From the NCBI GenBank assembly GCA_025766275.1, contig JAFKAC010000039.1, positions 62,001 through 126,000 on the forward strand: DNA of 64,000 bases, given 5' to 3'. Source of the stretch: Lactarius indigo (lineage: Eukaryota > Basidiomycota > Agaricomycetes > Russulales > Russulaceae). The notes under the pieces are model-generated. The model saw nothing but the letters and a program-made list of their open reading frames with translations, had not been told where the DNA came from and did not search any database. Made by a program: the position numbers and the translations under genes. Below are positions 2,195 through 53,547 of this stretch, in pieces (the stretch's first letter is position 1; the number at the start of each line of letters is the position of its first letter).

Positions 2195-5100
2195 ATGCAG
2201 GCGTCCTCCTCATCCACTCCAAAAGATCCAAACCTTCAACCAATATTCGAAAAGGCCCTGAAGGACTATAAGAAGAAGACCGGCACAGACCTGACTGCGC
2301 ACCCACTCGCTGTTGAGCTAAATGGCTGCGATTCTCCCGAGTCTATCCTCGCCGTACTTGAACAGAAGGCAAATGTACTGAATCAATCTTGGAGTAGCGA
2401 TGACCGACTCACCAAGTGGCTTAAACCTACCGTGAATATCCTCAATGCGCTCTCTGCACCTCTTGGGGAGGGCGCTGGCTTGGTAGGTCACAGGAGCCAG
2501 GCTCACTACCTGTTATTCCTCACGTTAACTTTCAGGCATTCTCCCCTTCCAAAATCATCTTCTCTGGAATCGGAATTTTCCTCTTAGTGAGTTTTCTTAC
2601 TCAATTCTCTGTATGGGTCGCGAGAGCTTCAACTCTAGTAGGCGGCAAAGAACACTGTGACAAGCCGCGATGCGCTTGTTGAACTCTTTGATAGTATCGA
2701 AAGCCTCTTTCGACTCTTCAAGACCTATACCGAAGACCCACCAGCTCGGACGGTGGTGGATGTACTCGTGAAGATCATGGCTGAAGTTCTGTCAATCCTT
2801 GCCATAGCGATGAACAGGGTGAAGCAAAAACGAACTAGTGGGTCTATCTCTTGTGATAAGCTCGATCTCGCCTAATTTCGAGCAGAGACAATTTTAAAGA
2901 AGCTGGCAGGAACAAATAATATCAAGGATGCCCTACAGAGGTTTAGAAAGTTGGAGCAGGGAGAGCTTCTCGTGATAATCGCACAGGTATCAAGGGAAAC
3001 TAAGGGCGGTGTTACGGTATGGACTTAACGACTCATTACACACGACTCATGACCGGTTATGACTACGGTCCGGTATCAGTATTAGTCATGGACTCTTACA
3101 TCGTATCAGTCAGCATAGTAGCTCGCATGTGATTGTGACTCATGTATGACTCATTCCTAGGATAGCGGTACTAGGGTTCGAGCTAGTTACGCTATTGGTT
3201 ACTTACTATTCCAGCGGCGCTTTAAAGCCCGCGTGTACTTGTATAAGTAGTCGACCCGGAAGACCAAGAGTCCCCATCTTGGTCTTCTTCAATCCACCCT
3301 TGACTCGCTAAAACCTCCTGCCTTAGTCTCGGACTAAGTGTGCCTTCACTTGTATCCAACCAAGGGATACACTTCTTCGCCTTTAGCTGCAGCGTGTGCC
3401 GAAGTGCCCCTGTTCAGCTCGCGTTGGGTTGACTCGTGTCCCCATTCGCCTATCTCCGCTAAGTTGATTACGCCTTCATAGCGTCCAAGTCGGACTAACG
3501 CCGGTGGAGCGTAACATTAAGACCAAGATCCTCAACCGTGGCGTACTCAACCAGAGACCAGTGGACATCCTTCCGTCCATATCATATCGAACGACGAGGA
3601 GATCGCAACGTACCAACAAGATTCCTAGGAGCAGCTCAGTGGAGAGAACGAGGAGAAGATACCGGATACTTCGTGGAATTTAACGGTCCCAACCGTTTCC
3701 GACCCGTTGAGTTCAATTTTGACCACCTCTGTTGGACGGAGGTTACTTGGAATCCTATAGACCATCATTGGGATATCGTACGACCAGCAGGAAGACATTA
3801 CAACTGCGACATCGACGCAAGAGAACTCAACAGTCGCGCAGACTACGGTCCTATTGACGGACAAGCGCAAGAACATACCGACGAAGGAGTTAGCGGAGAA
3901 GAAGCCTCCGATAGTCAACAGTCACCAAGTCGAGGAACGACACCAGCAGAGGAAGCAAGCTTAGGAGCTATCGGTGACCACATCATACAACGAACTGAGT
4001 CGTTAACTATTCATCAACCCGAACCAGAAGTAATCCATATCCACAGCCCAGCAGTCGCAATGGCAACAGCCACCGTTACCCAAGAAGAAACGTATCTCAC
4101 AAATGAAGCAAGAGATCAAATCGCCCTAGAAGAGCAAAGACGTATTGCAGAGGAATCGCGAGCCAATTTGGCTCCTATCAACCCGTACACTGGTCATCGA
4201 ATGACCGAAGACGATGTAGCAATTCACCGAGCAATCGGACCCGATGTAGCTGACCCTCCCAGCGGAGGCGGACCCCCCGGCGATCTACCCGGAGGAGGAG
4301 GAGGACCCCCATCAAGAGGACCAGGGTTCGAGGGATTCCCTGGAGGGTTTCCAGGAGGACCACCAGGGGGAGGACCAATCGGAGGTGGACTACCAGGTGC
4401 AGGCCCCATTATTCCCCCTCCAAGTAATAAGCTAGCTGGCGAAGCACCCACAGTATTCGACGGAGAACGCGCCAAAGTCGAAGCATTCCTTACCCAATGG
4501 CATGTTTACTGGGGCATGAACGCAGACGAAGGCATAATGGCCACACCTTACCGACGAGCCCTACTTTTCCTATCCTACATCAAGGGCGTTAACGTCAGCG
4601 AATGGGTACTGGCAATGCTCACCTGGCTTAATGGCCAGATACAAGCCGGCATACCTCGAACTAGTGAGGGACTATGGAACGAAGTCACGCGCAGCTTCAT
4701 GCAGCGCTTCCGCAACACGATGGAACAAGAACAAGCTCAATACGAGCTTAAGAAAGGAGTCAAGATGACTGGGGGCAATTTAGATGAGTATTGCACCCAA
4801 TTCGAACAGTTAATACGCCGCGCTCAATATAGACTCGACGACCCGCAAACGCTCGATCTATTCGCGAGTGGACTGCCGAAAGACCTTTACGAAAAGGTCT
4901 ATACTCTCGACAACCCCCGTAACTACCGGGAATGGAAAGAAGCGGCCACCACCCGCCAACAACAATATCTCCATCTCAAAGCAGTGTTAAACAAGGGAAT
5001 TCCCCCTGGACAAGGACAAGGAAGGCAACGACAACAACGACAGTGGCAGGGACCACCAAGAAGTTCATGGCAGCCGAGAAATCTGCGAGATCCAAATGCC

Positions 5101-8100
5101 ATGGATACCTCCGCAGATCGAATTCGAGGGCGACTTGCAGGAGCAGAAGACATACTCGCCCCTCGTCCCCCATACCGACCAAGAGGAGGATTTTTACAGA
5201 GAGGAGGAGGACGTAATAATCCAAGGCCAGTCACGTGTTATAACTGTAGAAAGGACGGACACATGGCCCGCGATTGCAGGGAACCACGAGGGGGATATCA
5301 ACCCCAAGCATCGACCAGTCGGTACATCGACACCGACTATCATCAACAAGAACCCGAAGTCGCTACCAGGGCGGTCCAAGAAGTACCCCCTCAACAGCGC
5401 GCCAGCGACTGGCTTAATGGAGTAGCCGGAGAATCGGATGACGTAAAGGACATTATCCTCCAGCAGTTGTGGAAGAAGGAGGGTTTTCAGGACGCCTGAA
5501 CCCATCGGCCTGGGTGAGGGCAGTTAATTGTAACAGTGTAATCATGACTCGCTACCGTTCTATGAGAGTTCCAGTATCGATTCGCACCAGTTACGCAATG
5601 GCCGACATACGAGCACTAGTCGACAGTGGAGCAACGCATTGCTTCATGAAACCATCATTTGCAAAAAGGATGGGACTTGGGACCAAATTACTCGACATCC
5701 CAAAAAAAATATGGAACATTGACAATACAGAAAATAAATCGGGGCGTATCACTCACTATACCGATGTTGATGTTCAAACTAAAGGCATTCACAAGGAGAT
5801 CCGTTTCCTTATTACGGACATTGGAAACGAAGACATCGTGTTAGGATACCCCTGGCTTGCCATTTACGATCCACATATCAAGTGGTCACAAGCAGCCATA
5901 CATGAAGACATGCTCCCTATCATTATTCGATCTATCAATCCCAATATCAAAACCACGCCAGCGGTAGCAGCTGCTATCGTTCAAAATGACGATTACGAAG
6001 TCGTGCACTCCTGTGTTATCACAGACGAACAACGACAACATTTTGAAGAAGGATGTCGAATCAGGGCCACTGCCACCGATCTCGCCATCGCCGCCCAACA
6101 ATATGTCACAAAAGCTGAGTTACCCCCTGAATACAGCGAATTCGAACGCCTCTTCAGTGAAGAAGCATCAGACAGGTTTCCACCCAGCAGGCCCTGGGAT
6201 CACGCCATCGAATTTAAACCGGGAACAGCCGATGCGATTGACTGCAAGATATATCCCATGACACAAGAAGAAGACAAGAAATTACGCGAATGGATTGACG
6301 AACAACTCAAAAAGGGGTATATACGACCCTCCAAATCCCCTTACGCGTCATCTTTCTTCTTCATCAAGAAAAAGGACGGAAAGCTACGACCTGTCCAAGA
6401 CTATCGAAAGATCAACGCAGTTACTATCCGCAATCAATACCCTCTTCCCCTCATCTCCGATCTCATTACCGACCTTAGCAACGCCCACATCTATACTAAG
6501 CTCGACGTTAGGTGGGGGTACAACAATGTACGCATCAAAGAAGGAGACGAGGAAAAGGCGGCGTTCAAAACACGATACGGCTTATTCGAACCCACGGTGA
6601 TGTTTTTCGGCTTAACCAACTCCCCAGCAACGTTCCAGACCATGATGAACTTCATCTTCAGGGACATCATCGCCAAACATGAAAAACGCGGCACAGTTAT
6701 TCGTGTCTACATGGACGACATCGGTATTGCCACGGGGCTTGATCATTCACTACAGGACCACATCGAAGCCGTTAAAGATGTACTCCGCGTATCCGCGGAA
6801 CATGATTTATACTACAAGCTTGAAAAATGCCTATTCCACTCCCCGCGCATGGATTACCTGGGGGTAATCCTTGAAAAGGGGGTGACGCGCATGGACCCCG
6901 TCAAAATTTCAGGAATCAAGGACTGGCCTACGCCAACAAAGGTTAAGGACGTCCGCTCTTTTCTCGGATTTTGCAACTTTTACCGACCTTTCATACGAGG
7001 TTTCGCGACCAAAGCACGCCCCCTCAACAAACTTACCCGCAAAGATACCGAATGGCACTGGGGAACCGAAGAGGAAAAGGCGTTCCAAGACCTCAAAACC
7101 CTCGTCACCAGCGAACCGGTTCTCGCGCACCCCGACCTTACGCAACAATTCGAACTAGAGGTTGACGCGTCGGGATTTGCCACTGGAGCCGTCCTCCTTC
7201 AGCGCAAAGCGGACGGCAAACGACATCCCATCGGTTACTATTCGTCAACCCTCAATGAGGCCGAACGCAATTACGACATTTACGACCTCGAACTCTTAGC
7301 GATCGTCAAGGCCTTTCGCCACTGGAGGCCCCTTTTAGCAGGGTCCCCCCACAAAATTAAAGTGTTTTCGGACCATCTTAACTTACAATACTGGAAATCG
7401 CCGCAAAAGATTAGTAGACGGGTAGCCAGGGAAGTACTTGAACTCTCGGAATACGACTTCGAGATTCACCACATTAAAGGAACTTCCAATGGTCGCGCCG
7501 ACGCATTGTCGCGAAGACCGGATTACGACCAAGGAGAAAACGATAACGAGGGAGTAACTGTGTTACCAGAAAGCGTCTTTGCGCGCGCTACCACACTAGA
7601 AGAACCGCGACACCCCCACTGGAGACCCGAGATCCTACCTGTGGAGATGACACCAGAACACCCCATTTACGAGCAAGATACAGCTAAGTTGAAACCCTGG
7701 GTTGACGCTCACAAGCTGAAAGACATCGAAGGAACGTGGTATAAAGAGGGACGCCGAGTAGTCACGGGCGGCATCCATGACAAACGCACGATCATTGCGG
7801 CCCATCACGATTCCCCTGTCTATGGCCATCCAGGCATCAAACGAACTCTCCAACTCACTGAACGACACTACTGGTGGCCACAGATGAAGAACGACGTCAC
7901 AGAATACGTCAAAGGGTGCGCGGAATGTCAGCGGCACAAAGCCAACCTCCGACCAATTAAGGCACCACTACAACCTATTTACCCAAAACCAGAAGCCCTG
8001 CCGTTTGAGACTATCGCAGTGGACTTTATTACCAAGCTCCCCGTCTCTCGTGGTTTCGATTCCATTCTCACGGTAACAGATCACGATTGCACTAAAGCTG

Positions 8101-11100
8101 CTATCTTCATACCTTGTAATGAAGAGATAACAGCCGAAGGAACCGCCGCCCTGTACGTCTCTCACGTATTCCCCTGATTTGGACTCCCCTCGCGTGTTAT
8201 CAGTGATCGGGATCCCCGTTTCGCATCCAAGTTTATGCGAGAGATATGTAAAATCCTTGGCATCAGCCAAAACATCTCAACCGCTTATCACCCCAGGACG
8301 GACGGCCAATCGGAGCGAACGAATCAATGGCTGGAGCAATATCTCCGCTTCTGGGTAAATGAACGACAGGACGACTGGACTCGTTATCTGCCTATGGCAG
8401 AATTCACGCATAACAATTGGCCTAATGAAACTACACGGGAGTCCCCCTTCTTTCTCCTATCCGGGTTCAACCCTCGCGCTGATTGGACCGATAGGCCGTC
8501 TCCTATTCCCCAAGTGTCGCTAAGACTAGATCAGTTCAAACAGGCACGACAGCGCGCCTTCTCCTGTATGCTCCGGGCGCAAAAGTCATGGGTCAAACAC
8601 AAAGATACGCCCAGATTCAAAGAAGGAGACCTTGTATGGCTAGAAGGGCGCCACTTACGCACTCATCAACCAACCGCAAAATTGGCCGCAAAACGCCATG
8701 GGCCATTTAAGGTCATTCAGGTGATGTCTCCTGTCAACTATCGTCTCGAGCTTCCCACGCAGTGGAGCATCCACGACGTATTCCACATAGATCTTCTCAC
8801 ACCTTATCGCGAAACGCCCACGCACGGACCAAACTATCAGCGCCCACCACCTGATTTGGTCGATAACGAAGAAGAATACGAAGTCGAGAAGATTCTAGAC
8901 TCGCAGCGATTCGGCAGAAGACGCCGGCTCCAGTATCTCGTCAAATGGAAGGGCTATCCTGACTCCGACAATCAGTGGATAGATAAGGATGACATATTTG
9001 CCGACGAAGCCGTTCGGGACTTCAAACATTCCAACCCCGACAGAGAAACGCATATAAGGACAGCTTTCTGTCGTGATAAGTCCCCATCTCCCATTCATTC
9101 CATGTCCTCCACTCGACGCAATGACCAGCTCGCACTCCTCTCTACCCTCGTCAATGACTCCACCACCACGCTTGTCAACCCCGACTCCACCGACGACACC
9201 GCAGCCAGTGGAGCTACGCGAAGAGGCCGTCCCTCCGTGCAGCATGAGGAAGACGGCCCTATCACTAGTGAAGAATTGCACCAGACACTGCAACGATTCC
9301 CTATGCCCGTACAGGGAACTCTCGACGACGATCCAGCAGCAACTCAACCAGCACCTCCGCCGTCAATGTACGCCCTCACAAACCCCAACACCGGTGAGCC
9401 CGAAGTCTTCCTCACCGAAGACGAGCTCTTTCGGCTTCAAGCAGCTGTCCCGCGCGGTGAAACCACCCAACGCCATGCAGAAGTACGAACAAGAATGGAA
9501 GGAGACGGCGGCGCGGTGGCAGCGGGAGCAACTGCATATCGCCGCCTGCCGGCGCCGGATGATGAAGGAGCGGAAGGAGTACTGGACGAAGATGAGGATG
9601 AAGACGAGCTTGGAGACTATTACCCCATCAGGCACGCATTCCTTAACCATGAATTCTACGCTGAAGATCCAGCCGCCACTCCCTACCTCGTCGACGCAGC
9701 GGGGGGACCTCTACACAGGGGACGAGTCGCCGTGGCACAAGCGGCTCGTTATACACCAATGGGGGAACGAGACCCAGCAACCAGAGTCATTGTCCCTGAA
9801 GGGTTCCGGGTCAATCGAGGACCCGATTACATTCCGTTCCCGATCAAACTCCCCAACGGACCGACGGTACAAGCATCACACGTACAAGTTATCCGAGGAG
9901 GAGACCCCTTCGTACTCGGATTAGCTCCGGGGTCAGGCTTCCTCTATGGGAAGCCCCTTTACGCCACCCCCCACCTCCCAAAAAACAATCGTGCGTTTAT
10001 CCCACACGAAGAGCATTTCATGCTCCGAGACCGACACCCCACCGATTTGCTGCTGATGCGCATTGGGGATGTCACCCTTACTCAAGAACTGCGCCGGTTC
10101 CGGCAGTTCGCATTTGCCGAGGACCAGCTGGAGAAGCGAATCCGACAGCTACAGTTGGAAAGGGAGATGGTGGTTCAGGACAAAAAGGACAGTCTTTATC
10201 GTCTTGAACGAGCTAACATATTGGCGCGAATGGAGGATGAAGCGGAACGGATGAGGCAGGAATCGGTGGCGGATTAGTGAGGTGGGCCTCACTCCTGAAA
10301 AGGGGGTGATGTTACGGTATGGACTTAACGACTCATTACACACGACTCATGACCGGTTATGACTACGGTCCGGTATCAGTATTAGTCATGGACTCTTACA
10401 TCGTATCAGTCAGCATAGTAGCTCGCATGTGATTGTGACTCATGTATGACTCATTCCTAGGATAGCGGTACTAGGGTTCGAGCTAGTTACGCTATTGGTT
10501 ACTTACTATTCCAGCGGCGCTTTAAAGCCCGCGTGTACTTGTATAAGTAGTCGACCCGGAAGACCAAGAGTCCCCATCTTGGTCTTCTTCAATCCACCCT
10601 TGACTCGCTAAAACCTCCTGCCTTAGTCTCGGACTAAGTGTGCCTTCACTTGTATCCAACCAAGGGATACACTTCTTCGCCTTTAGCTGCAGCGTGTGCC
10701 GAAGTGCCCCTGTTCAGCTCGCGTTGGGTTGACTCGTGTCCCCATTCGCCTATCTCCGCTAAGTTGATTACGCCTTCATAGCGTCCAAGTCGGACTAACG
10801 CCGGTGGAGCGTAACAGGCGGTGCGTAACTCTTTCATCTGGCCATTCACTTATGTTTTGAATGTCTTCTGGTTAGACGCAAAGCAAACAAATGGGGCGGC
10901 TGAGGAGATCGTTAAAAGTATGGACGTCGGCAATTCTTCCCCCTCCCTTGACGTGGTCGCGAGTACTTGTCAAAGTTCAAAAATAGTCACAGAGGAGGAA
11001 TGCTTACCGCCTGGGAAGCTTCATACACCCGCTTCTGAACGCTCCTGCCCTGGCGCGGGGCTTGTGTCCGAGCACACTCGGCGTAAAAAATCGGTGGGCG

Positions 11101-21500: not shown

Positions 21501-23400
21501 GTGGCTGGATGCCAGAAACTTGAAAACAACGCACCCTAGTTTCAAGTTAGCCCCAAAAAGATATGGACCCTTCAGGGTCACAAAGAAGATCTCCGCCACC
21601 ACATACGCCCTGAAACTTCCCCATCAGTGGCGGATCCACCCAGTATTCCATGCGTCACTCCTGATGCCATACAAAGAAACCTCCATACATGGAAAGAACT
21701 TTACGGAACCACCCCCAGATCTAGTAGATGGGGAACAGGAGTGGGAAGTCAAGAAAATACTAGAAACAAGACGCCACAGGAACCAGTTACAGTTCCTAAT
21801 CAAGTGGAAGGGATACTCCGATGCACACAACAGTTGGGAACCAGAGAAGAACCTCAGCACCCCAGAACTTATTCAGGAACACTTTGAAAGCAACCCCAGA
21901 AGTGAAGGAGCAAAGCAATGGTTAAAACGAAAGGAAGTAACAGTACGAACAGCAACCACCTTCCCCACTAGCTTCCTCACCATGCCCTCTCGCTCCTCCT
22001 CTGTAGAATGTCTTGTTGCTCGTGCCATGGAAAGAGGTTCCTTTGACGAAACACCCTCTGTTACACCCTCCTCTGGCTATTCTCCCTTCCCAGCACGACC
22101 CCCTTCCTTGCCTTCACTCATCCAGGAACCACAACCCATTGATCCCACCATGCCCAGCGTCATAGAAACAGAAGGAGGAGGAATAGCCCTTCGCGTTCCC
22201 CCTCCTGGACACACAGCTCCCCCTACTCCCGAGATACACCGACCTACCACCTCCCCCCCTGATCCTAGAGTGACCATGGCTCGTCTCAGCGAAATAATCA
22301 ACGACCCAATCATGGATGCACTCCCCATTAACTATGAAAGGATGCACATCGCTGCTGAAGAAGACGACGACCCTGGCTACCCCTTCTTCTTGAATGACCC
22401 CTGGAGCAGCCGCTATGTCCACTTCCTCATCCCTGACGACGCTGACCCAACCTCGTACATCCGAAAGGATGCCAAATGGATCAGGATCAGTGAAAACAAA
22501 GAAGATGTCATCGGCACCATGGGCAAAAACCTCCCTCACTATGGCCTCCCCCTTTTTCTCCTTCCCAGAGACGACGACCCCCACAACCCAGCTCCCCCCA
22601 TCACCCCAGCTCAGATGCAGAACTTGGATGAAGCTTCCCCCACAGCCAGACAAGTCGATGAAGTCCTAGAAGACCTGAAAGATGACCACCTCACAGCAGA
22701 AATCTCCAGGACTCGCCGACTCTTGCGAAACCAGAAGGCCCTCCGAAAGGAGATTGAAGGCCTGTACAAGACGATGGAGCCCCTCAAAAGGCACCTCCTC
22801 AACATGGACATGCAACTAACCAGCACCCGAAGAAGGCTGCAAGAACACAAGGCCTATGTCCGGATTGCAGACCAATGGCTCACACTACACCCCCCTCCTC
22901 CGGAAGAAGAAACTCACCCCTTTGAAGTCCACCCCATTCCTGCCCCTGCTCCACCTCGCTACCACTCCATGCCACGACTCCACGACGAACCAGAAGGACC
23001 TAGCCCCTCTGCAGAAAGGAAGAAGAGACGCAAGCGCAGAACCAACAAGAAGGAGACTGGCACCATTCGACTTTGTTACAGGTGCCAGTCTGAAGACCAC
23101 CTCTCCTTCGCCTGCCCTCAAAAACAGAAGTTCTGCTGGAGGTGTTCTAGCACTGACCACTTCCCCTATCAGTGCCTCTGGCCAGCCTCAGAAGAACGCA
23201 CTCAGTGGTGTGGCAAGTGTTTTACCAGCAACAGCCACGAAGAAATCAAGTGCCCCAAGTATGAAAATTGTCGCAAATGCGGGGCCCATGGTCCCTTCAA
23301 CTTCCTTCACCAACATCGCTGCCCCCTCCCTCGCGAAAGCACCCCCTCCAACGATGTAGATAACGATGTCTATGACCTGATGGACTTCGAAGCACTCTAG
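18518..23400 (+). pseudogene. pol: C Pol (PR-RT-RNaseH-IN-chromodomain-zinc knuckles), one in-frame TGA
   Basis: The frame runs from the slippery site to TAG 23400, interrupted only by TGA 18673-18675, six codons after the start of the protease motif DSGATDN. After it, 1557 codons are open: RT with YMDD (about 19614), RNase H DASTFATGA (about 20070), integrase HHCC (about 20670-20795), DDE core (ALDF near 20885, SDRDPRF near 21068, SERTN near 21178), a GPF module, a chromodomain (about 21736-21890, LQFLIKWKGYSDAHNSWEPE), then a long extension. The extension has a helical region (about 22680-22880), a basic patch (KKRRKRR) and four Cys/His modules (23071-23330). The stop may be a post-insertion mutation or may need read-through. 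Confidence 0.88.
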
Positions 23401-39100: not shown

Positions 39101-42100
39101 TGAGAAGGATGCTGAGTGTCGTAGCGTGCTTCGTCGCATAGAAAAGGGGGTTGGTCGCCTGCGTAAGAGGTCGGACAGGTTCGGTGTATCGCGAAGTAAA
39201 TAGTTGTCGGCGTCCGAGAGACCCAAGGGTACAGTAACTTTGTTGAACGGTAGAGAGTGTCCGTGATCGACGTCGTCGACTGAAGCGGCCCAATCCGTCT
39301 GTATCAAGACACAGAGCGGTCTGTGACACGTGTAGCTGAGAATGATCAAAATCGACATATTGTCCAAAGAAGTGAACAGTTCTGTCGAGTAAGTCTGAGG
39401 TACGGGATGAGAGACGTGATTTGACAGTCATTCGGTGGTTCGTCAACCAAGAGGGTACGGTCGTTGGTTCGGCTAGTCTTTTAGTCGTAATCTGGCGTCG
39501 TTTCCCATCCTGACCCCGGGTGGCGGCATACACTTGACGTATGTCGGACGCGGTAAAGCGCGTCTTGTCGGTCAGTTGATCTAGAACATCTGGAGTTAGT
39601 ATGATCGCACACGCATTCCATATCGTCGATTGTTTTAGCGGTTGGTAACTCAGGTGTCGTTTTTCGTCTTTCACTCCTGAGCAGAAGAGGGGTAACTGAG
39701 GTTTACGAAGATACCTCTTCACGGGGCATTCCGTGTTAGAACCGTCCCAGCATTCGAACTCGTTTAGCGAGGACATTTTGTTTGATGTGATTGTTGGTTT
39801 ATCGGGTGCTGATGCGGTCACATGATCGTTGTTTCGTTGTGGTGGGAATTTTCGTTCGGTTTCTTCCGACGGCGTTATCGTCTGGTTTGCGTAACGCTCT
39901 CTGCACGACTTTCTTCTTTTCCTCTCCTGATGTTGTTGCGCGACGGTGTCGACCCTGGTGCCTCGTTGCAATGTGCTGTTCTGCTCCACTTTGGGTATTT
40001 CTTTGTTGTCCCGATTGGTTGACGGTCGAGTTTCCCTTGTATTCATGGCGCATGGAGGTGTGGTATAGGTGAGTGACCTACATTGGGCCTTTTCTCGATG
40101 CGCGAAGGTCATGTCGTCTCGTTGGTTCGATACTTCGTTTGTACTGATGGTGGGGCGGGGTTTGCAGGGTTTTAGTTCGGGTGTCAATTTCCTTTCCCTT
40201 CCGTGATTGGTGAATCTGTCTGCAGTTCTCGAGTCGAACGTCGCAATTGCGTCGTTTCGATGTTCTTCCTCGGTTACGTGTGTCGCAATCACTTTAGTCG
40301 ATGTGCTTTTATCGGTTTCGACGGCTTCGTCTTCTCGTTCGTCTTTTAGTCTTTCGGTGAATCGCAGTATCGTCTTTCGCCGTTCAGTGATGTCTACCTT
40401 TCGGAGCTCGGTCATGACTTGTCTCAATGTGAGTTCGTCGATTCCCAGCATACGCGCGATTATATTTCGCCTAGTAGCGACGTCGATTCTTCGAATTTCG
40501 GTCGCGACCTGTTCTGTTGTCGTTAATTGTTCGTATACTGATGTCTCTCGTGTCATGAGTTTTCTTGGTAGGAACGTGGTGACCTCTTTGGCTGTCTCTG
40601 GCTTACCCCGGCTGTTTCGCGGGGATCGCGACGCTGTTTTCCACGGGAGTTCGCTGTCGAGTTTCTCGAAACGGGATTCGTTCCGATTCGCTCTTACCAC
40701 CTTGACGGGCGTAGTGATTCGGTCATCCAGTGCGTCTCCTCGTGCGTTTCTATCACACGGGCTTCGGCTTATTCTTTGATCATTCAGTGTGTCTCGTACG
40801 TCCTGTCGGTACGGGCTTCGCCTTACCTGATTGGTACGTGCGTCATCCAGTGCGTCTCCGCGTGTAACGGTATTACACCGGCTTCGACTTAGCTCGTTTC
40901 CCACGTATCTGTCGTACAGGTTCGGTAGATGCTTCCTTATCGTATCGTTGCTGACGTCTGTTCGCCAGGCATGTAACCTCACTTCGTTTGTCGATGTTTC
41001 TGGGTCTTCCGTTGACCCGTCGTCGTAGAGGTTCCCAGTCCTTGCCTCGCTATCTGTTATCAGGATCTCTGATCGAGGGTCCCGTCCTACTTCTGGCTGA
41101 GAAGTGATCGATTGCGATTCGAAGTTTGCGGATCGGGTGTGATCCCATGTCGTTGATTTCCCATCTCTTTCGTTGACTAAGCGTGTCGCGTTGTGTATGT
41201 CAATACACGAGTCTATTCCGGTTCTGTCGTGCTGATATCGATCGACCGAATTCGTGTCGTTGTTGCTCAACTCCTCTCGGGGTTCGTGTAGGTCTTTCCT
41301 CGACGGCTCGTGAGTACGTGGTTCTGTCTCGGTCCGGTCATGTCCTAGCTGACAGCAGTCAGTATGGTCTCTGAATTCAGTCCTCGTCGGTCCGTTTTCT
41401 TTGGGTAGTCGAGTCTCGTTCGGGAGTCGAATGACCTCCTCTACGTCGTGGTCTGTTTTGCCGTTAGGTCCTGGGATTCCGTATCGTGCTTTCGTTCGAG
41501 AAGCGCTTGATCGTGGTTCAGGGTCCGCATATGGGAGATGATTCTTTGTTATCGTTGAGGCGTTCATCGATCTCTGCGTGTCCGTACGTTGTTCTCCTTC
41601 ACGGCTGTCGTGTTCTATCCGCTGACATCCGTCTACTCGGCTGTTGTGATCTCTGGGCGGCGTTTCCACGGGTTCTGTGCTGTGTCGTTCGATTACGCGT
41701 TCCCTCGTAGGTTTTGCGCATGGCTGTGCCGGTTTGCTCAATTCGTTGGGCGTGGGGTCCTTCAAGTCCTGTGTCGTCGCGTTATTTCGCGCTTGTTCCG
41801 TGAGTCGTCCGTGTTCGTTCACTGGCATCATGGGTTGCTCGAGTATCACTGACTCTTTCCGTGGGTAGTTCAGGTTCTGTTCGGTACGTCGTTCGTTTGC
41901 GCAGTACTTGGTGCGATTCGAGGGTGCTGTTCTATCTGTCGAACACTTTACGTCGTGTCCGCTAGCTGGTTCAATATATTCGTGTCGTCTCAGATCATTA
42001 GTGGTGTCTCGGTTCGTGGGACGCTTTCCGCCTTGTCCAGCAGCAGCAGTTTCGTTTCCTCGGTGTTGTCGAAGGTTATTCATCGTGTGTCCTGGCTCTG

Positions 42101-42200
42101 GGTGCTGCACGTCCGCGCGGGGACTGTCATGCGCACAAGTCGCGATTTCGTGGGGACGCGTTTCGCCTCGTCCATCGGTAGCAGTTTCAGTTCTATGCAT
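36174..42200 (-). CDS. B polyprotein: eroded RT-RNaseH-IN, BTB domain, zinc knuckle
   Basis: An uninterrupted ATG-started ORF of 2008 codons. The first 800 residues are polar and low in Phe/Trp/Tyr, with a helical stretch near residues 560-640 and no recognised Gag. RT-like sequence begins near residue 830 (about 39715); motif A remains as FTASDIRQVY, and the YxDD region reads QYVDFD. RNase H is recognisable (YAHNRELFAPIHVLDRWRRL, about 38940), but the usual DREL and TDHKNL residues are changed. The integrase finger keeps HDSITVKHP (about 38660) but its CxxC reads CTTH, and the core acidic motifs are altered. Residues about 1660-1785 (37220-36845) form a BTB/POZ domain, and a knuckle CRHCHGVGHTKAFC lies near 36490. 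It is probably catalytically dead and mobilised in trans. The open frame suggests the protein still has a role. Confidence 0.75.
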   Translation of the reverse strand: MHRTETATDGRGETRPHEIATCAHDSPRADVQHPEPGHTMNNLRQHRGNETAAAGQGGKRPTNRDTTNDLRRHEYIEPASGHDVKCSTDRTAPSNRTKYCANERRTEQNLNYPRKESVILEQPMMPVNEHGRLTEQARNNATTQDLKDPTPNELSKPAQPCAKPTRERVIERHSTEPVETPPRDHNSRVDGCQRIEHDSREGEQRTDTQRSMNASTITKNHLPYADPEPRSSASRTKARYGIPGPNGKTDHDVEEVIRLPNETRLPKENGPTRTEFRDHTDCCQLGHDRTETEPRTHEPSRKDLHEPREELSNNDTNSVDRYQHDRTGIDSCIDIHNATRLVNERDGKSTTWDHTRSANFESQSITSQPEVGRDPRSEILITDSEARTGNLYDDGSTEDPETSTNEVRLHAWRTDVSNDTIRKHLPNLYDRYVGNELSRSRCNTVTRGDALDDARTNQVRRSPYRQDVRDTLNDQRISRSPCDRNARGDALDDRITTPVKVVRANRNESRFEKLDSELPWKTASRSPRNSRGKPETAKEVTTFLPRKLMTRETSVYEQLTTTEQVATEIRRIDVATRRNIIARMLGIDELTLRQVMTELRKVDITERRKTILRFTERLKDEREDEAVETDKSTSTKVIATHVTEEEHRNDAIATFDSRTADRFTNHGRERKLTPELKPCKPRPTISTNEVSNQRDDMTFAHREKAQCRSLTYTTPPCAMNTRETRPSTNRDNKEIPKVEQNSTLQRGTRVDTVAQQHQERKRRKSCRERYANQTITPSEETERKFPPQRNNDHVTASAPDKPTITSNKMSSLNEFECWDGSNTECPVKRYLRKPQLPLFCSGVKDEKRHLSYQPLKQSTIWNACAIILTPDVLDQLTDKTRFTASDIRQVYAATRGQDGKRRQITTKRLAEPTTVPSWLTNHRMTVKSRLSSRTSDLLDRTVHFFGQYVDFDHSQLHVSQTALCLDTDGLGRFSRRRRSRTLSTVQQSYCTLGSLGRRQLFTSRYTEPVRPLTQATNPLFYATKHATTLSILLNIAHSCPIHRQTDALWCDTDTTLTQFDDREETPIIDCLPPLPSPINHNHYAHNRELFAPIHVLDRWRRLFVDTRCPVIILANLLCHVTLPSSYRVTLPPAFADHCCATRLSHSTRRTNIPQSHGIHLGIADDPLQRRGVIQLLHDSITVKHPDKNKKLLTLQRHPMKTEAAKHNTECTTHQGNKNLPKLLHVPLPSIDPQRNTPHFNTFIRDFNAKISKSLNFVTTTNQRHSKIRVIILTKENCGIERMTNVTSDRIPLRYELSNEIPSKRDPHITTALIRVPYTPPNIKQNNDSTYRSCTNDRQKGPKRRRVQYLNARANHRRYNERTTQLLVTRPSHDTQPSTYEILTSSIPSTRQQTPIISRTSNKGLAMWNTLRRDLSSIMTSGEGLIRNHRTAYGEPMPRLCEPPHIVDETCSPDWGGTHDTFHGRLLIPDHTVGTLRSQEEQSLPQPILENTEQDNEQIFNHQPRVKKKTLLSLIRRKGRSTMHDRAKPLDNAQTTARLAQHKKRVQSEIDPIATNSLTMDEHPPPTTTITADQLPAQWTFNSDDGHTAPDRLLTNEGRHTRPTSAPSPPPTAEGPDELGRPIIAQDHDSTTESCIQGNADDDQDGASPHANSRTNVHRRHHLYDLVNADATFETNDCTFHVHSYFFTRESPYFRRLWKIAGSTTETPIDLSDDGPIPVENNTTAGPYYVALNEVTTEEFELLLWVFYNSDYSVYEATTREWTLILRLAQQWEFPRVEALCWRELLNIGLVAHSPLQVPRSHSSRTNNEDTHRRRHARNQHRSTPSREPTTKTTPQRLTVTNPDPDHDISLATPRGSAQPTTSNEPEPEVRQSPPVVIDLVDDHHLTPTQGQRNDRRGTRTNTYHCRHCHGVGHTKAFCRQPHTWCTPQRRCPVPPRHPYYGLQCPASTTPPAGERTHTWVRDTLSPTRAIQPTVHPRRRRHRAALDDQPVDDYDYPYDVDWEAVDRSP
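36845..37220 (-). other. BTB/POZ domain within the B polyprotein
   Basis: The minus-strand translation from 37220 contains ADATFETNDCTFHVHSYFFT, then ESPYFRRLW, then TEEFELLLWVFYNSDYSVYE, then EWTLILRLAQQWEFPRVEAL. This is the pattern of basidiomycete BTB proteins: a hydrophobic core strand, a dimer helix, an FxxLLW helix and a terminal helix. BTB domains mediate dimerisation and recruitment of partners such as cullin-3. Confidence 0.75.
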
Positions 42201-42475
42201 CGTGATTCGGTTTCGTGGGGACGCGTTACGCCTCGTCCAGTGGCAACAGGGTTCCAGGTTTCGTTGGTGACTCGCAGTATCGATCGTACTGAGTGTCGGT
42301 GTGCTCGTTCTGTAATTCGCGGTTTTCTGGGAACGCTTTTCGCCTCGTTCTGCGGCAATCGGGGTTCGTTCGTGTGAGGAGGATCTATCGTCCTTTCCTA
42401 CAGCAGTTCAGGGTCTCGGGCTACAGGAGAGATCAAGCGTCTCGTCCAGTAGTTCGTACGAACGACTTGCGCCTC
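42010..42475. repeat. Degenerate repeats in the 5' leader of B
   Basis: Five diverged copies of a word like GGGACGCGTTTCGCCTCGTC followed by a CAGTGG/CAGCAG-type tail occur near 42020, 42155, 42216, 42330 and 42455. The spacing is irregular (about 60-135 bp). They cover the leader and the first codons of the B ORF. Confidence 0.5.
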
Positions 42476-42496
42476 GTTCGTGGCAGGGTAAGAGTG

Positions 42497-42507
42497 GTCT
42501 ACTCTTA
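42497..42507 (-). other. Self-priming primer binding site of B
   Basis: On the minus strand TAAGAGTAGAC directly abuts the 5' LTR. It is the exact reverse complement of GTCTACTCTTA, the predicted RNA 5' end (42706-42696). This is the same logic as A and C with a third unrelated sequence. Confidence 0.7.
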
Positions 42508-42911
42508 TGTTACGGTTCCGAGGGACCGTCCGGGCTTTCTACGGAGCTGAGCTCAACGTTCGGGTAGAGTCGGGACTTGTTCTGCAAACAAGTCAAGATT
42601 CGGGGAGTTCTAGGCTCAACTCAAGGAGTATTGCTAGAGAGAGGGGAAAGCACGCAGGGTTCTGAGGCAAGGCAAGCTAGGTCAGATTCAAGAACTAAGA
42701 GTAGACAACCAAAAGTACTACTCAGACAGCTACTACTTATACTCTTACAGACTATTGGTTTTCGTGACTATTTTCTCAATGAGCACCATAAGGCGTGCTT
42801 ATTAGCACTGTCAGTCGTGCTATTCCGAAACTCTGGAGTCATACTTGCTTGATGCTTTGCTGGCGCGATGTAACGCGTGACCGATAGTCACGATGTCACG
42901 TGATCGTGACA
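42508..42911 (-). repeat. 5' LTR of B
   Basis: On the minus strand it starts TGTCACGATCACGTGACA and ends CGGAACCGTAACA. TATAAG reads from 42741 downward. The predicted RNA start GTCTACTCTTA covers 42706-42696, 35 nt further on. Confidence 0.9.
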
Positions 42912-44912: not shown

Positions 44913-45422
44913 TGTTACGGTACGGACTTGATGACTCATTACACACGACTCATGACCGGTTATGACTACGGTCCGGTATTGATATTAGTCATGGACTCTT
45001 ACATCGTATCAGTCAGCATAGTAGTTCGCATGTGATTGTGACTCATGTATGACTCATTCCTAGGATAGCGGTACTAGGGTTCGAGCTAGTTACGCTATTG
45101 GTTACCTACTATTCCAGCGGCGCTTTAAAGCCCGCGCGTATCTGTATAAGTAGTCGACTCAGAAGACCAAGAGTCCCCATCTTGGTCTTCTTCAATCCAC
45201 CTTCTGAAACGTCTCTTGTCTGCCTTAGTCTTTGACTAAGTGTGCCTCCGCTAAGTGTTTCCCAAAGAACACTTCTCTTTATCCCCTTTGCTGCAGCGTG
45301 TGCCAGAGTGCCCCTGTTCAGCCTGCGTTGGGTTGACACGTGATCCCCATTCGCTTAACTTTTGCTAAGTCGATTACGCCTTTCACGAGTCCAAGTCGGA
45401 CTAACGCCGGTGGAGCGTAACA
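44913..45422 (+). repeat. 5' LTR of A2
   Basis: Palindromic ATGACTCAT at 44931-44939 and further TGACTCA sites near 45036-45055; TATAAG at 45145-45150; predicted RNA start ATCTTGGTCTT at 45179-45189. The leader hairpins keep their positions relative to A1 although the sequence differs (AAGTGTT/AACACTT at 45253-45274). Confidence 0.95.
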
Positions 45423-45424
45423 TT

Positions 45425-45435
45425 AAGACCAAGAT
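45425..45435 (+). other. Self-priming primer binding site of A2
   Basis: AAGACCAAGAT lies two bases after the LTR and exactly complements 45179-45189. It is unchanged from A1 although the surrounding leader has diverged. Confidence 0.7.
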
Positions 45436-45442
45436 CCTCATC

Positions 45443-47410
45443 GTGGCGTACTCGACCAGAGACCAGTGGACGTCCTTCCGTCCCTATCATATCGAACGAC
45501 GAGGAGATCGTAACGTACCAACAAGATTCCTGGGAGCAGCCCAGTGGAGAGAGCGAGGAGAAGACACCGGATACTTCGTAGAATTTAACGGTCCCAGCCG
45601 TTTCCGACCTGTTGAGTTCAATTTCGAACACCTCTGTTGGACCGAGGTTACTTGGAATCCCATAGATCATCGCTGGGACATTGTACGACCAGCCGGAAGA
45701 AATTACAACTGCGACATCGACGCCCGAGAACTCAATAGCCGAGCAGACTACGGTCCTATAGACGGACAAGCACAAGAACATACGGACGAGGGAGTTAGCG
45801 GAGAAGAAACCTCCGAAAGTCAGTCCCCAAGTAGAGGAACTACGCCAGCAGAAGACGCCAGCCTAGGAGCCATCGGCGATCACATCATACAACAAACTGA
45901 GTCCCTCACTATTCACCAACCAGAACCCGAAGTAATTCACATCCACAGTCCCGCAGTCGCAATGGCAACTGCCACTATCACACACGAGGAACTGCTCACT
46001 ACCGAAGCAAGAAATCAAATAGCACTAGAAGAGCAACGACGTATCGCAGAGGAATCCAGAGCCAATCTAGCTCCCATTAATCCCTACACTGGTCATCGAT
46101 TGACTGACGACGACGTAGCAATCCACCGCGCCATTGGGCCCGACGTAGCTGATCCTCCAAGTGGGGGAGGAGGAAACCCTGGCGATCTACCAGGAGGAGG
46201 AGGACCTCCATCAAGAGGACCCGGATTCGGAGGATTCCCTGGTGGACTACCAGGAGGATTCCCCGGAGGACCCCCAGGAGGAGGACATTCCGGAGGAGGA
46301 CTACCAGGTGCAGGTCCCATTATTCCCCCTCCGAGTAACAAATTAGCTGGTGAAGCACCAACAGTATTCGACGGAGAACGTGCCAAAGTGGAAGCGTTCC
46401 TTACACAATGGCATGTCTACTGGGGCATGAACGCAGACGAAGGCATTATGGCGACACCATATCGACGCGCCTTACTCTTCCTATCATACATCAAAGGAAC
46501 TAACGTCAGCGAATGGGTGCTGGCCATGCTTACTTGGCTCAATGGCCAGATACAAGCAGGAATACCCCGTACGAGCGAAGGATTATGGAACGAAGTCACG
46601 CGAAGCTTTATGCAACGCTTCCGAAACACAATGGAGCAAGAACAAGCTCAATACGAGCTCAAGAAAGGAGTCAAAATGATCGGGAGCAATCTAGATGAGT
46701 ATTGCACCCAATTCGAACAGTTAATACGCCGCGCTCAGTACAGACTCGACGATCCGCAAACGCTTGATCTATTCGCAAGCGGATTACCAAAAGACCTATA
46801 TGAAAAGGTCTACACTCTCGACAACCCCCGCAATTACCGTGAATGGAAAGAAGCAGCCACCACTCGTCAACAACAATATCTTCACCTTAAAGCGGTGTTG
46901 AACAAAGGAGTTCCCCCTGGACAAGGGCAAGGGAGACAGCGACAACAACGACAGTGGCAAGGGCCACCGAGGAGTTCATGGCAGCCAAGAAATTTACGAG
47001 ATCCAAACGCCATGGACACCTCTGCAGATCGAATTCGAGGAAGGCTCGCAGGAGCTGAGGACATACTCGCCCCTCGCCCTCCATATCGACCAAGGGGAGG
47101 ATTTTTACAGAGGGGAGGAGGACGTAACAACCAAAGGCCAGTCACGTGTTATAACTGTGGAAAGGACGGACACATGGCCCGCTATTGCAGACAACCGCCG
47201 AAGGAAAATCAACCCCAAGCGTCGACCAGTCGGTATATCGACACCGACTATCATCAACAAGAACCAGAAGTCGCTACCAGGGCGGTCCAAGACATACCCC
47301 CTCAACAGCGCGCCAGCGACTGGCTTAATGGAGTAGCCGGAGAATCAGATGACGTAAAGGACATTATCCTCCAACAGTTATGGAAAAAGGAGGGTTTTCA
47401 GGACGCCTGA
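45443..47410 (+). CDS. gag: A2 Gag
   Basis: Homologous to A1 Gag over its whole length: N-terminal module, Gly/Pro-rich stretch, gag core and a knuckle CYNCGKDGHMARYC. The frame is open upstream of 45443 into the LTR but has no ATG. GTG at 45443 in the context ATCGTGGCG matches A1 (3538) and C (16844), so I place the start there. The TGA at 47408-47410 follows GGGTTTT at 47392-47398. Confidence 0.85.
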   Translation: MAYSTRDQWTSFRPYHIERRGDRNVPTRFLGAAQWRERGEDTGYFVEFNGPSRFRPVEFNFEHLCWTEVTWNPIDHRWDIVRPAGRNYNCDIDARELNSRADYGPIDGQAQEHTDEGVSGEETSESQSPSRGTTPAEDASLGAIGDHIIQQTESLTIHQPEPEVIHIHSPAVAMATATITHEELLTTEARNQIALEEQRRIAEESRANLAPINPYTGHRLTDDDVAIHRAIGPDVADPPSGGGGNPGDLPGGGGPPSRGPGFGGFPGGLPGGFPGGPPGGGHSGGGLPGAGPIIPPPSNKLAGEAPTVFDGERAKVEAFLTQWHVYWGMNADEGIMATPYRRALLFLSYIKGTNVSEWVLAMLTWLNGQIQAGIPRTSEGLWNEVTRSFMQRFRNTMEQEQAQYELKKGVKMIGSNLDEYCTQFEQLIRRAQYRLDDPQTLDLFASGLPKDLYEKVYTLDNPRNYREWKEAATTRQQQYLHLKAVLNKGVPPGQGQGRQRQQRQWQGPPRSSWQPRNLRDPNAMDTSADRIRGRLAGAEDILAPRPPYRPRGGFLQRGGGRNNQRPVTCYNCGKDGHMARYCRQPPKENQPQASTSRYIDTDYHQQEPEVATRAVQDIPPQQRASDWLNGVAGESDDVKDIILQQLWKKEGFQDA

Positions 47411-50554: not shown

Positions 50555-51848
50555 CACCCAGGTATCAAACGCACTCTTCAACTTACTGAACGACACTACT
50601 GGTGGCCGCAAATGAAAAACGACGTCACTGATTACGTCAAAGGTTGTGCGGAGTGCCAGCGGCACAAAGTCAATCTCCGACCAATCAGAGCGCCCCTACA
50701 ACCTATCTACCCCAAACCGGAAGCCCTGCCATTCGAGACTATTGCAGTGGACTTTATTACCAAACTCCCCGTCTCTCGCGGTTACGACTCTATTCTCACG
50801 GTAACAGATCACGATTGCACCAAAGCCGCTGTTTTTATCCCTTGTAATGAAGAGATAACAGCCGAAGGAACTGCTGCCCTGTACGTTTCTCACGTCTTTC
50901 CACGATTCGGACTCCCCTCGCGCGTTATCAGTGACCGAGATCCCCGCTTCGCATCCAAGTTTATGCGAGAGATATGCAAAATCCTTGGCATCAGCCAAAA
51001 TATCTCAACCGCTTATCATCCCAGAACCGACGGCCAATCGGAGCGAACAAATCAATGGCTAGAACAATATCTCCGCTTCTGGGTAAATGAGCGGCAAGAC
51101 GACTGGGTCCGCTATCTGCCTATGGCGGAATTCACGCATAACAATTGGCCCAATGAAACCACGCGGGAGTCCCCCTTCTTTCTCTTATCCGGATTCAATC
51201 CTCGCGCTGATTGGACCGATAGGCCTTCCCCTATCCCACAAGTGTCGCTAAGATTAGACCAGTTCAAACAAGCGCGACAACGTGCCTTCTCCTGCATGCT
51301 CCGGGCGCAAAAGTCATGGGTCAAACACAAAGATACGCCCAAGTTCAAAAAGGGAGACCTTGTATGGCTAGAAGGACGCCACCTACGTACCCATCAACCA
51401 ACCGCAAAACTAGCAGCTAAGCGACACGGACCGTTTAAGGTCATCCAGGTGATGTCCCCTATCAACTATCGCCTCGAACTTCCCACGCAGTGGAGCATCC
51501 ATGATGTCTTCCACATAGACCTTCTCACGCCTTATCGCGAGACACCCACGCACGGACCAAACTATCAGCGCCCACCACCTGATTTGGTCGATAACGAAGA
51601 GGAATACGAGGTCGAGAAGATTCTAGACTCTCGGCGATTCGGCAGGAGGCGTCGGCTCCAATACCTTGTCAAATGGAAGGGCTATCCAGACTCAGACAAT
51701 CAATGGATAGATAAGGATGACGTATTTGCCGACGAAGCCGTTCGGGAGTTTAAACATTCCAACCCCGATCGAGAAACGCATATAAGGGTGACTTCTTGCC
51801 GCGATAAGTCCCCAACTCCCATTCATTCCATGTCCTCTACTCGACGCA

Positions 51849-52652
51849 ATGACCAGCTCGCTCTCCTCTCTACCCTCTTCAACGACTCCTCCGCCACGCT
51901 TGTCAACCCCGACACCACCAACGACACCGCAGCCACTAGAGTTGCAGATGGAGGCCGTCCCTCCATGCAGCATGAGGCAGACGGCCCTATCACTGGTGAA
52001 GAACTGCACCAGACACTGCAACGATTCCCTATGCCCGTACAGGGAATTGTCGACGACGATCCAGCAACAACTCAACCAACACCTCCGCCGCCAATGTACG
52101 CCCTCACAAACCCCGACACCGGTGAGCCCGAAGCCTTCCTCACCGAAGACGAGCTGTTTCGGCTTCAAGCAGCTGTCCCGCGCGGTGCAGCCACCGAACG
52201 CCATGAAGAAGTACGAACAAGAATGGAAGGAGACGGCGGCACGGTGGCAGCGGGAGCAACTGCATATCGCCGCCTGCCGACGCCGAATGATGAAGGAGCG
52301 GAGGGAGTATTGGACGAAGATGAGGATGAAGACGAGCTTAGAGACCACTACCCCATCAGGCACGCATTCCTTAACCATGAATTCTACGCTGAAGATCCAG
52401 CCGCCACTCCCTACCTCGTCGACGCAGCGGGGGGGCCTCTACACCGAGGACGAGTCGCCGTGGCACAAGCGGCTCGTTATACACCAATGGGGGAACGAGA
52501 CCCAGCCACGCGACTCGTTGTCCCTGAGGGGTTCCGGGTCAATCGAGGACCCGATTACATTCCGTTCCCGATCAAGCTCCCCAACGGACCGACGGTACAA
52601 GCATCCCACGTACAGGTTATCCGCGGAGGAGACCCCTTCGTTCTCGGACTAG
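51849..52652 (+). CDS. ORF-X of A2 (overlaps pol)
   Basis: 267 codons from ATG 51849 to TAG 52652 in the +1 frame relative to pol, the same start, stop and length as in A1 (9121-9924). The best conserved part is the helical centre (EQEWKETAARWQREQLHIAA) and the following Arg/Lys-rich segment. Conservation of both ends and low divergence across the overlap support a real second product. Confidence 0.6.
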   Translation: MTSSLSSLPSSTTPPPRLSTPTPPTTPQPLELQMEAVPPCSMRQTALSLVKNCTRHCNDSLCPYRELSTTIQQQLNQHLRRQCTPSQTPTPVSPKPSSPKTSCFGFKQLSRAVQPPNAMKKYEQEWKETAARWQREQLHIAACRRRMMKERREYWTKMRMKTSLETTTPSGTHSLTMNSTLKIQPPLPTSSTQRGGLYTEDESPWHKRLVIHQWGNETQPRDSLSLRGSGSIEDPITFRSRSSSPTDRRYKHPTYRLSAEETPSFSD

Positions 52653-53024
52653 TTCCGGGATCGGGTTTCCTATACGGTAAACCTCTTTACGCCACTCCAC
52701 ACCTCCCCAAGAACAACCGCGCCTTTATCCCACACGAGGAGTATTTTATGCTCCGAGATCGACACCCTACCGACCTATTACTCACGCGCATTGGGGATGT
52801 CACCCTCACCCAAGAACTGCGCCGGTTCCGGCAATTTGCCTTTGCCGAAGACCAACTGGAGAAGCGGATACGGCAGCTGCGACTGGAGTGGGAGATGGTC
52901 GTGCAGGATAAAAAGGACAGTCTTTATCGTCTGGAACGCGCTAACATACTGGCAAGGATGGAAGATGAGGCGGAACGGATGAGGCAGGAGTCGGTAGCAG
53001 ACTAGTGAGGTGGGCCTCACTCCT

Positions 53025-53037: not shown

Positions 53038-53547
53038 TGTTACGGTACGGACTTGATGACTCATTACACACGACTCATGACCGGTTATGACTACGGTCCG
53101 GTATTGATATTAGTCATGGACTCTTACATCGTATCAGTCAGCATAGTAGTTCGCATGTGATTGTGACTCATGTATGACTCATTCCTAGGATAGCGGTACT
53201 AGGGTTCGAGCTAGTTACGCTATTGGTTACCTACTATTCCAGCGGCGCTTTAAAGCCCGCGCGTATCTGTATAAGTAGTCGACTCAGAAGACCAAGAGTC
53301 CCCATCTTGGTCTTCTTCAATCCACCTTCTGAAACGTCTCTTGTCTGCCTTAGTCTTTGACTAAGTGTGCCTCCGCTAAGTGTTTCCCAAAGAACACTTC
53401 TCTTTATCCCCTTTGCTGCAGCGTGTGCCAGAGTGCCCCTGTTCAGCCTGCGTTGGGTTGACACGTGATCCCCATTCGCTTAACTTTTGCTAAGTCGATT
53501 ACGCCTTTCACGAGTCCAAGTCGGACTAACGCCGGTGGAGCGTAACA
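53038..53547 (+). repeat. 3' LTR of A2
   Basis: 510 bp that appear identical to 44913-45422, followed by TTATC. Confidence 0.95.

Follow-up and report, generated by a model that had tools for sequence, protein, structure and literature searches.

The window, by which we mean the whole 64,000-nucleotide (nt) stretch of Lactarius indigo DNA analysed here, contains two Ty3/gypsy long terminal repeat (LTR) retrotransposons, A1 and A2, and the subject of this report is an open reading frame (ORF), termed ORF-X or X, that lies in each of them wholly inside pol. A1 has a Gag zinc knuckle, protease (PR), reverse transcriptase (RT), integrase SH3 and chromodomain, with Pfam matches above the cut-off to PF00385, PF24626, PF00098, PF00078 and PF08284, which by domain content are chromovirus features. 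Past the chromodomain pol continues as a long tail, and it is in the +1 frame of this tail that ORF-X sits:

9121..9924, + strand: ORF-X of element A1, 267 amino acids (aa) and TAG, +1 frame of pol
51849..52652, + strand: ORF-X of element A2, 267 aa and TAG, +1 frame of pol
9102..10277, + strand: C-terminal tail of A1 pol in the pol frame, opening at the AUG at 9102
51830..53005, + strand: pol-tail frame of A2, the counterpart of A1 9102..10277
8877..9029, + strand: chromodomain of A1 pol (PF00385), close upstream of the tail

The X protein has a charged middle rich in Trp, Arg and Glu, is rich in S/T/P at both ends and lacks any membrane-type hydrophobic stretch. Its isoelectric point (pI) is 9.7 in the family of A1 and A2 (family A) and 10.6 in a second family (family B, described below), and that of the A1 pol tail, read from the AUG at 9102, is 5.0.

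An earlier note on this DNA, working from A1 and A2, had proposed that the two 267-codon ATG-to-TAG frames are a conserved gene overprinted on pol, and both frames are indeed present at 9121-9924 and 51849-52652, in the +1 frame relative to pol. The note's hand counts of about 22 differences in 400 nt over 9505-9905 and about 26 in 153 nt past the shared stop become 21 in 401 nt and 28 in 153 nt on recounting; over the 350 nt after the stop A1 and A2 differ at 59, falling 7/3/49 at pol codon positions 1/2/3. Over the whole of X, A1 and A2 differ at 55 of 804 nt, with 30/8/17 at the same three positions, and differences at the pol wobble position amount to 0.063 per codon in X vs 0.339 in PR-RT, a lower value in X where a value no lower than in RT would, by the note, have refuted the gene.

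Further copies were drawn from a genome of 90.3 Mb in 291 contigs, where 40 of 693 candidate places found by DNA search were scored and the 30 most similar to A1 taken; the resulting A alignment has 31 copies (A2 was added to these and L001, a duplicate of A1, dropped) and includes near-identical or identical rows (L029/L030, L008/L009 and L014/L025). The ATG and TAG of X are retained in 31/31 of these copies and X is intact in 29/31, the exceptions being L015, with one stop, and L018, with a 1-nt deletion, so that the stops in other family members that the note had proposed looking for are rare. Pol, too, is intact across the overlap in 29/31 (L018 is shifted and L023 has two stops), and the third frame across the region has 14-18 stops per copy, shifted L018 excepted. 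When the genome was searched with the X protein, 133 of the best 144 of 1349 candidates were stop-free, and the remaining 11 have one or two stops each, all TGA. A frame antisense to this region in A2 (51692-52378) was also considered and rejected, being open in just 13/31 copies.

The manner in which the 31 copies differ changes sharply along pol. Parsimony changes at pol positions 1/2/3 number 97/48/1032 upstream (7830-9057), 224/55/115 over 9121-9660, 30/13/75 over 9661-9924 and 100/46/423 after the X stop, and the usual pol pattern thus returns at the X stop, where the note had placed the end of the low-change stretch. The wobble position of X coincides with pol position 1, and therefore it is positions of X that are free to change over the first two thirds of its length. 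This refines the earlier account: over 9121-9660 conservation is stronger in X than in pol, and over 9661-9924 there is little change in either. Synonymous shuffling of pol codons in six A copies left the +1 frame open in only 2 to 7 of 10,000 shuffles.

Rates that take account of the overlap were estimated from 9 pairs of A copies and 10 pairs of family B copies, chosen by eye from trees as independent; the A pairs use 18/31 copies, L015 and L023, with their stops in X or pol, among them, and the B pairs use 20/23, L078 included. For A, dSN/dSS of X is 0.11 (95% bootstrap interval 0.08-0.16) and dNN/dNS of X is 0.25 (0.14-0.39), with dNS/dSS of pol in the overlap at 0.13. The same two X ratios are 1.02 and 0.92 in the upstream control and 0.61 (0.45-0.94) and 1.45 in the control after the stop.

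Family B is a second group of elements with an X, its pol tail being 38% identical to that of A. Of 24 loci taken, L076 was dropped before counting as its tail is incomplete, leaving 23 copies, in all of which the ATG and stop of a 241-codon X are kept at the same place as in A; X is intact in 22/23, L078 having one internal stop. Among the 23 copies the changes per site are 1.42 over the chromodomain stretch and 2.16 over the linker; they fall to 0.48-0.52 within X and rise to 1.51 after the stop. Here dSN/dSS of X is 0.14 (0.09-0.30) and dNN/dNS of X is 0.34, with dNS/dSS of pol in the overlap at 0.08; the controls give 0.69 and 1.37 for dSN/dSS and 0.79 and 0.82 for dNN/dNS. A genome search with the X of B returned 136 stop-free sequences among the best 150 of 1365 candidates, so that for A and B together 269 of the best 294 scored X matches are free of stops.

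X as encoded by B copies shows 27-30% identity to the X of A1; what the two share includes residues in the central segment rich in Trp, Arg and Glu, and a block, L-K/R-G-S...P-I-T-F, at the C-terminus. Aligned with each other they score 158, a value that synonymous shuffling reached in 0 of 1000 cases when B was shuffled, in 3 when A was and in 0 when both were, and the +2 frame control is less unusual (71 of 1000 shuffles). In both A and B purifying selection is found on both frames, X and pol. The conserved overprinted gene proposed from two copies is thus upheld with 31 A and 23 B copies, and the substitution patterns indicate that purifying selection acts on ORF-X in two families of retrotransposons. 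Given this selection on its frame, X likely encodes an unannotated accessory protein, which from its composition is likely to be small and basic.

The bases around the start of X suggest how it might be translated. A pol-frame AUG lies 19 nt (A) or 22 nt (B) upstream of the X AUG and is kept in 31/31 A copies; position -3 is a pyrimidine for this first AUG and a purine for the X AUG in all copies of both families (31/31 A and 23/23 B in each case). By Kozak rules, a first AUG with a -3 pyrimidine followed by a second with a -3 purine is the layout expected for leaky scanning. Between 9080 and 9123 these two are the sole ATGs in 30/31 A copies, one copy adding another at 9116, and the change in the X frame falls at the X ATG itself, which is invariant in the A copies, residues shortly upstream being variable. 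Scanning along a full-length RNA would have to traverse Gag and Pol, and therefore a shorter RNA seems to be needed.

Close upstream of the paired AUGs lies a predicted copy of the LTR core promoter:

9053..9058, + strand: predicted internal TATAAG box of A1, in 31/31 copies, with 0 changes over 9051-9059
9079..9089, + strand: predicted internal start-site motif AGTCCCCATCT of A1, exact in 23/31 copies and identical to the LTR motif
51781..51786, + strand: predicted internal TATAAG box of A2
51807..51814, + strand: core AGTCCCCA of the start-site motif in A2, where the full 11-mer is inexact
3242..3279, + strand: 5' LTR core promoter of A1, the model copy (TATAAG at 3242, AGTCCCCATCT at 3269)
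10542..10579, + strand: TATAAG/AGTCCCCATCT pair of the A1 3' LTR
45145..45182, + strand: TATAAG/AGTCCCCATCT pair of the A2 5' LTR
53270..53307, + strand: TATAAG/AGTCCCCATCT pair of the A2 3' LTR

The distance from TATAAG to AGTCCCCATCT is 27 nt in the LTR and 26 nt in the internal pair (9053 and 9079), and the internal TATAAG of A1 is 68 nt ahead of the X ATG. Within A1 3401-10300 the internal pair is the sole match with 0 mismatches, and in 200 Markov shuffles of that sequence the best match had at least 3 mismatches to the promoter pair. Among the A copies there are 0 changes over the 9 sites of the TATA block, against 50 over the 15 sites of the spacer and 8 over the 18 of the start-site block. 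The LTR start region (3259-3287) was also seen by eye to contain an 11-bp inverted repeat with a 7-nt loop, and in the LTR of B the stem of this repeat is kept and the loop differs, again by eye.

These observations make it very probable, as judged from the DNA, that X is an overlapping gene whose own protein is made from the X AUG, and the predicted internal promoter is somewhat favoured as the route to it. A number of points have to be set against one or other of these conclusions. The rates described above cover X and the upstream and after-stop controls, with the part before the ATG not split out; dSS is based on few sites (52 in A and 35 in B); and some bias of the method remains, because the interval of the 0.61 control (0.45-0.94) excludes 1. 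Over 9661-9921 in A the dNN/dNS of X is 0.91 (0.26-1.96), and therefore constraint on X in that part is visible in dSN/dSS alone. No relative of X appeared in a search of 5.8 billion proteins (376 candidates), nor does X have a Pfam or PDB match. As regards the promoter, equally quiet windows occur elsewhere in pol (11/402 three-codon windows for the TATA block and 9/399 six-codon windows for the start-site block), and the start-site role of the LTR 11-mer is itself inferred, because the 11-mer surrounds the loop of the inverted repeat. In B there is only a TATA-like CTTAAAAG, found in 19/23 copies within the variable linker, and the start region of the B LTR has no clear counterpart upstream of the B X, the words shared with the piece of B LTR compared being 7-mers at most; for these two reasons support for the promoter is confined to A.

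In further database searches a longer stretch of the X frame gave a single sub-threshold Pfam match (E 0.23), and a protein search with the pol tail gave one match among 7996 candidates scored, P0003 of Lactarius indigo. The corresponding search with the A2-tail region gave no match among the 7992 candidates scored, those sharing most words, and is uninformative on other species because only those candidates were scored and P0003 itself did not appear. The annotation seems to have missed X, since no relative of X was found and the sole matching L. indigo protein follows the pol frame. In P0003, an annotated protein, a B pol tail (residues 249-575) is joined to unrelated upstream sequence; these residues match a place on contig C61 at 99% identity, L076 coming from the same contig (G000:C61:85310-87160), and the protein may reflect either a fused gene model or exaptation of the tail.

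It would seem hard to account for the open frame as a by-product of pol composition. In six B copies the frame stays open in 70-239 of 10,000 synonymous shuffles (0.7-2.4%), so that it is only mildly improbable there, which counts against the gene and for this explanation; in the six A copies, however, the figure is just 0.02-0.07%. Composition would moreover leave the dN/dS values, the AUG contexts and the similarity between the two X proteins unexplained, and is contradicted by the shuffles of X against X and by the overlap-aware rates, so that we give it practically no credence. Retroelements can hold cis elements within pol, and low synonymous change could in principle reflect RNA structure or another cis signal in place of a protein; as the constraint is specific to a frame, runs from ATG to stop and is repeated in a family with only 27-30% X identity, this too is very improbable. 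A further alternative is a Pol-X fusion, produced by a +1 ribosomal frameshift shortly upstream of 9121. Ty3 uses such a frameshift between Gag and Pol, X does lie in the +1 frame, and between 9064 and the ATG that frame has no stop in 31/31 A copies. Just upstream of 9064, however, a TGA stands in the X frame at 9061 in 7/31 A copies, and in 6/7 B copies examined there is a stop 23-66 codons upstream, at 138 in the seventh. The variable X-frame residues ahead of 9121, next to an ATG that does not vary, also speak against a fusion, and no slippery string was noticed by eye, no search having been aimed at one; we consider frameshifting improbable.

Retroviral accessory genes are often expressed from spliced RNA, and X could come from a subgenomic RNA made by splicing, the donor lying in the 5' leader and the acceptor close upstream of the X ATG. 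Family B has a pyrimidine-rich, acceptor-like stretch with a YAG two bases ahead of the X ATG in 23/23 copies, and the X of B may on this sign be reached by splicing. The AG in question, however, doubles as part of an Arg codon next to the X start, family A has no AG directly ahead of the X ATG, and no conserved donor was noticed by eye in the A1/A2 leader, where no scan for donors was made. Spliced RNA as the general route to X is thus possible and rather unlikely.

The age of X can be approached through a third family, C, which has a comparable tail within the same window:

22300..23397, + strand: pol tail of family C, a comparator without X

This tail is weakly similar to those of A and B (hhalign E 0.00057, probability 29.5%), and in the one copy considered the +1 frame corresponding to X has several stops. 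A 167-aa +1 frame of C at 22856-23359 was tried as a candidate and was not supported, its ATG being missing in one compared copy and its differences from two other copies falling mainly at pol position 3 (27/42 and 17/30). As C has a weakly similar tail and no X, X was likely overprinted on an older pol tail; the comparison suggests, without proving it, that this took place before A and B split. The C pol also has zinc-knuckle-like motifs past the tail, an unusual place for them, with a weak Pfam match (E 0.0028, below the cut-off).

Some other features of the window deserve mention. The A1 pol frame is broken by an in-frame TGA at 8175-8177; in many other copies pol is open over about 1610-1620 aa and has the same tail at its end. 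Between 48200 and 50555 the A1-to-A2 offset shifts by 820 nt inside pol (41,908 to 42,728), and because of this change A2 seemingly has an insertion, or A1 a deletion, in pol. There are zero ATGs between the LTR start region and 4060 in A1 (3275-4060) or 45962 in A2 (45178-45962), even though Gag is open in A1 from about 3538; Gag may start perhaps at a GTG in good context, or via a spliced RNA. A large gene for an ankyrin-repeat protein, with a repeat spacing of 216-219 nt, lies on the minus strand at 61411-63942.

New relative to the earlier note are the presence of X in a second family and its absence from a third, the pairing of the AUGs, and the copy of the LTR core promoter that lies inside the element in A. 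Returning to X as a gene with its own protein, its expression can be pictured as follows: the predicted internal promoter near 9053-9089 would fire to give a short RNA, the first AUG of which (9102) would give a free Pol-tail protein of 391 aa, and leaky scanning past this AUG would allow X to be made from the second (9121). X would then regulate the element, with nucleic acid or the acidic tail of Pol as its partner, although such a regulatory role is doubtful on present evidence. The picture as a whole, a retrovirus-style module in the pol of a mushroom chromovirus with a duplicated LTR core promoter, a two-protein RNA, a free Pol tail and a basic regulator X, is put forward tentatively, as somewhat short of probable. 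If X is kept by selection in fungal LTR retrotransposons, then overprinted genes can arise in elements that copy within a genome. The copies also form an unusually rich natural alignment for the study of a new protein born atop an old one.

Overprinted accessory genes are known mainly from viruses, complex retroviruses included. The tas/bet genes of foamy viruses are accessory frames near the 3' end served by an internal promoter in env; X is similarly an accessory frame near the 3' end, with an internal promoter predicted within the body of A elements, but it lies wholly inside pol, and activation of the LTR by X is hypothetical. The P/C genes of Sendai virus are overprinted, with two frames read from neighbouring AUGs, as in the arrangement proposed for X, although that is an RNA virus and the proteins are unrelated. 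As a kind, then, the overprinted accessory gene is familiar from viruses, and its occurrence here is new as far as the searches of open-access literature go. The statement of the earlier note that none was known to be described in Ty3 chromoviruses agrees with searches of open-access PMC text aimed at the question, in which no overlapping frame in a chromovirus pol came up, subscription papers being outside their scope; a search on the host returned no paper, and a paper on overlapping viral genes, searched by term, gave no passage on Ty3-type elements.

Extra ORFs are known in fungal and plant LTR elements, as far as the accessible text reports. The fungal Ty3/gypsy chromoviruses resemble A1 in their zinc-knuckle Gag, protease, RT, integrase-type SH3, chromodomain and LTRs, and differ from A in that no overlapping frame is described for them in the accessible text (PMC2864245). 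In yeast Ty1 the short protein p22 is made from an RNA that begins within the element, as is proposed for X; p22, however, is part of Gag and in the Gag frame, whereas X has a sequence of its own in the +1 frame of pol (PMC8458377, PMC4599808, as far as available). The extra ORFs of plant LTR elements such as Grande and Retand lie, according to the available text, between pol and the LTR and are mostly antisense, that of Grande being described in a cited title as a nuclear protein with its own promoter (PMC11963269). Like these, X is a conserved extra gene near the 3' end of its element, and unlike these, which stand between pol and the 3' LTR, it overlaps pol and is read in the sense direction (PMC11963269).
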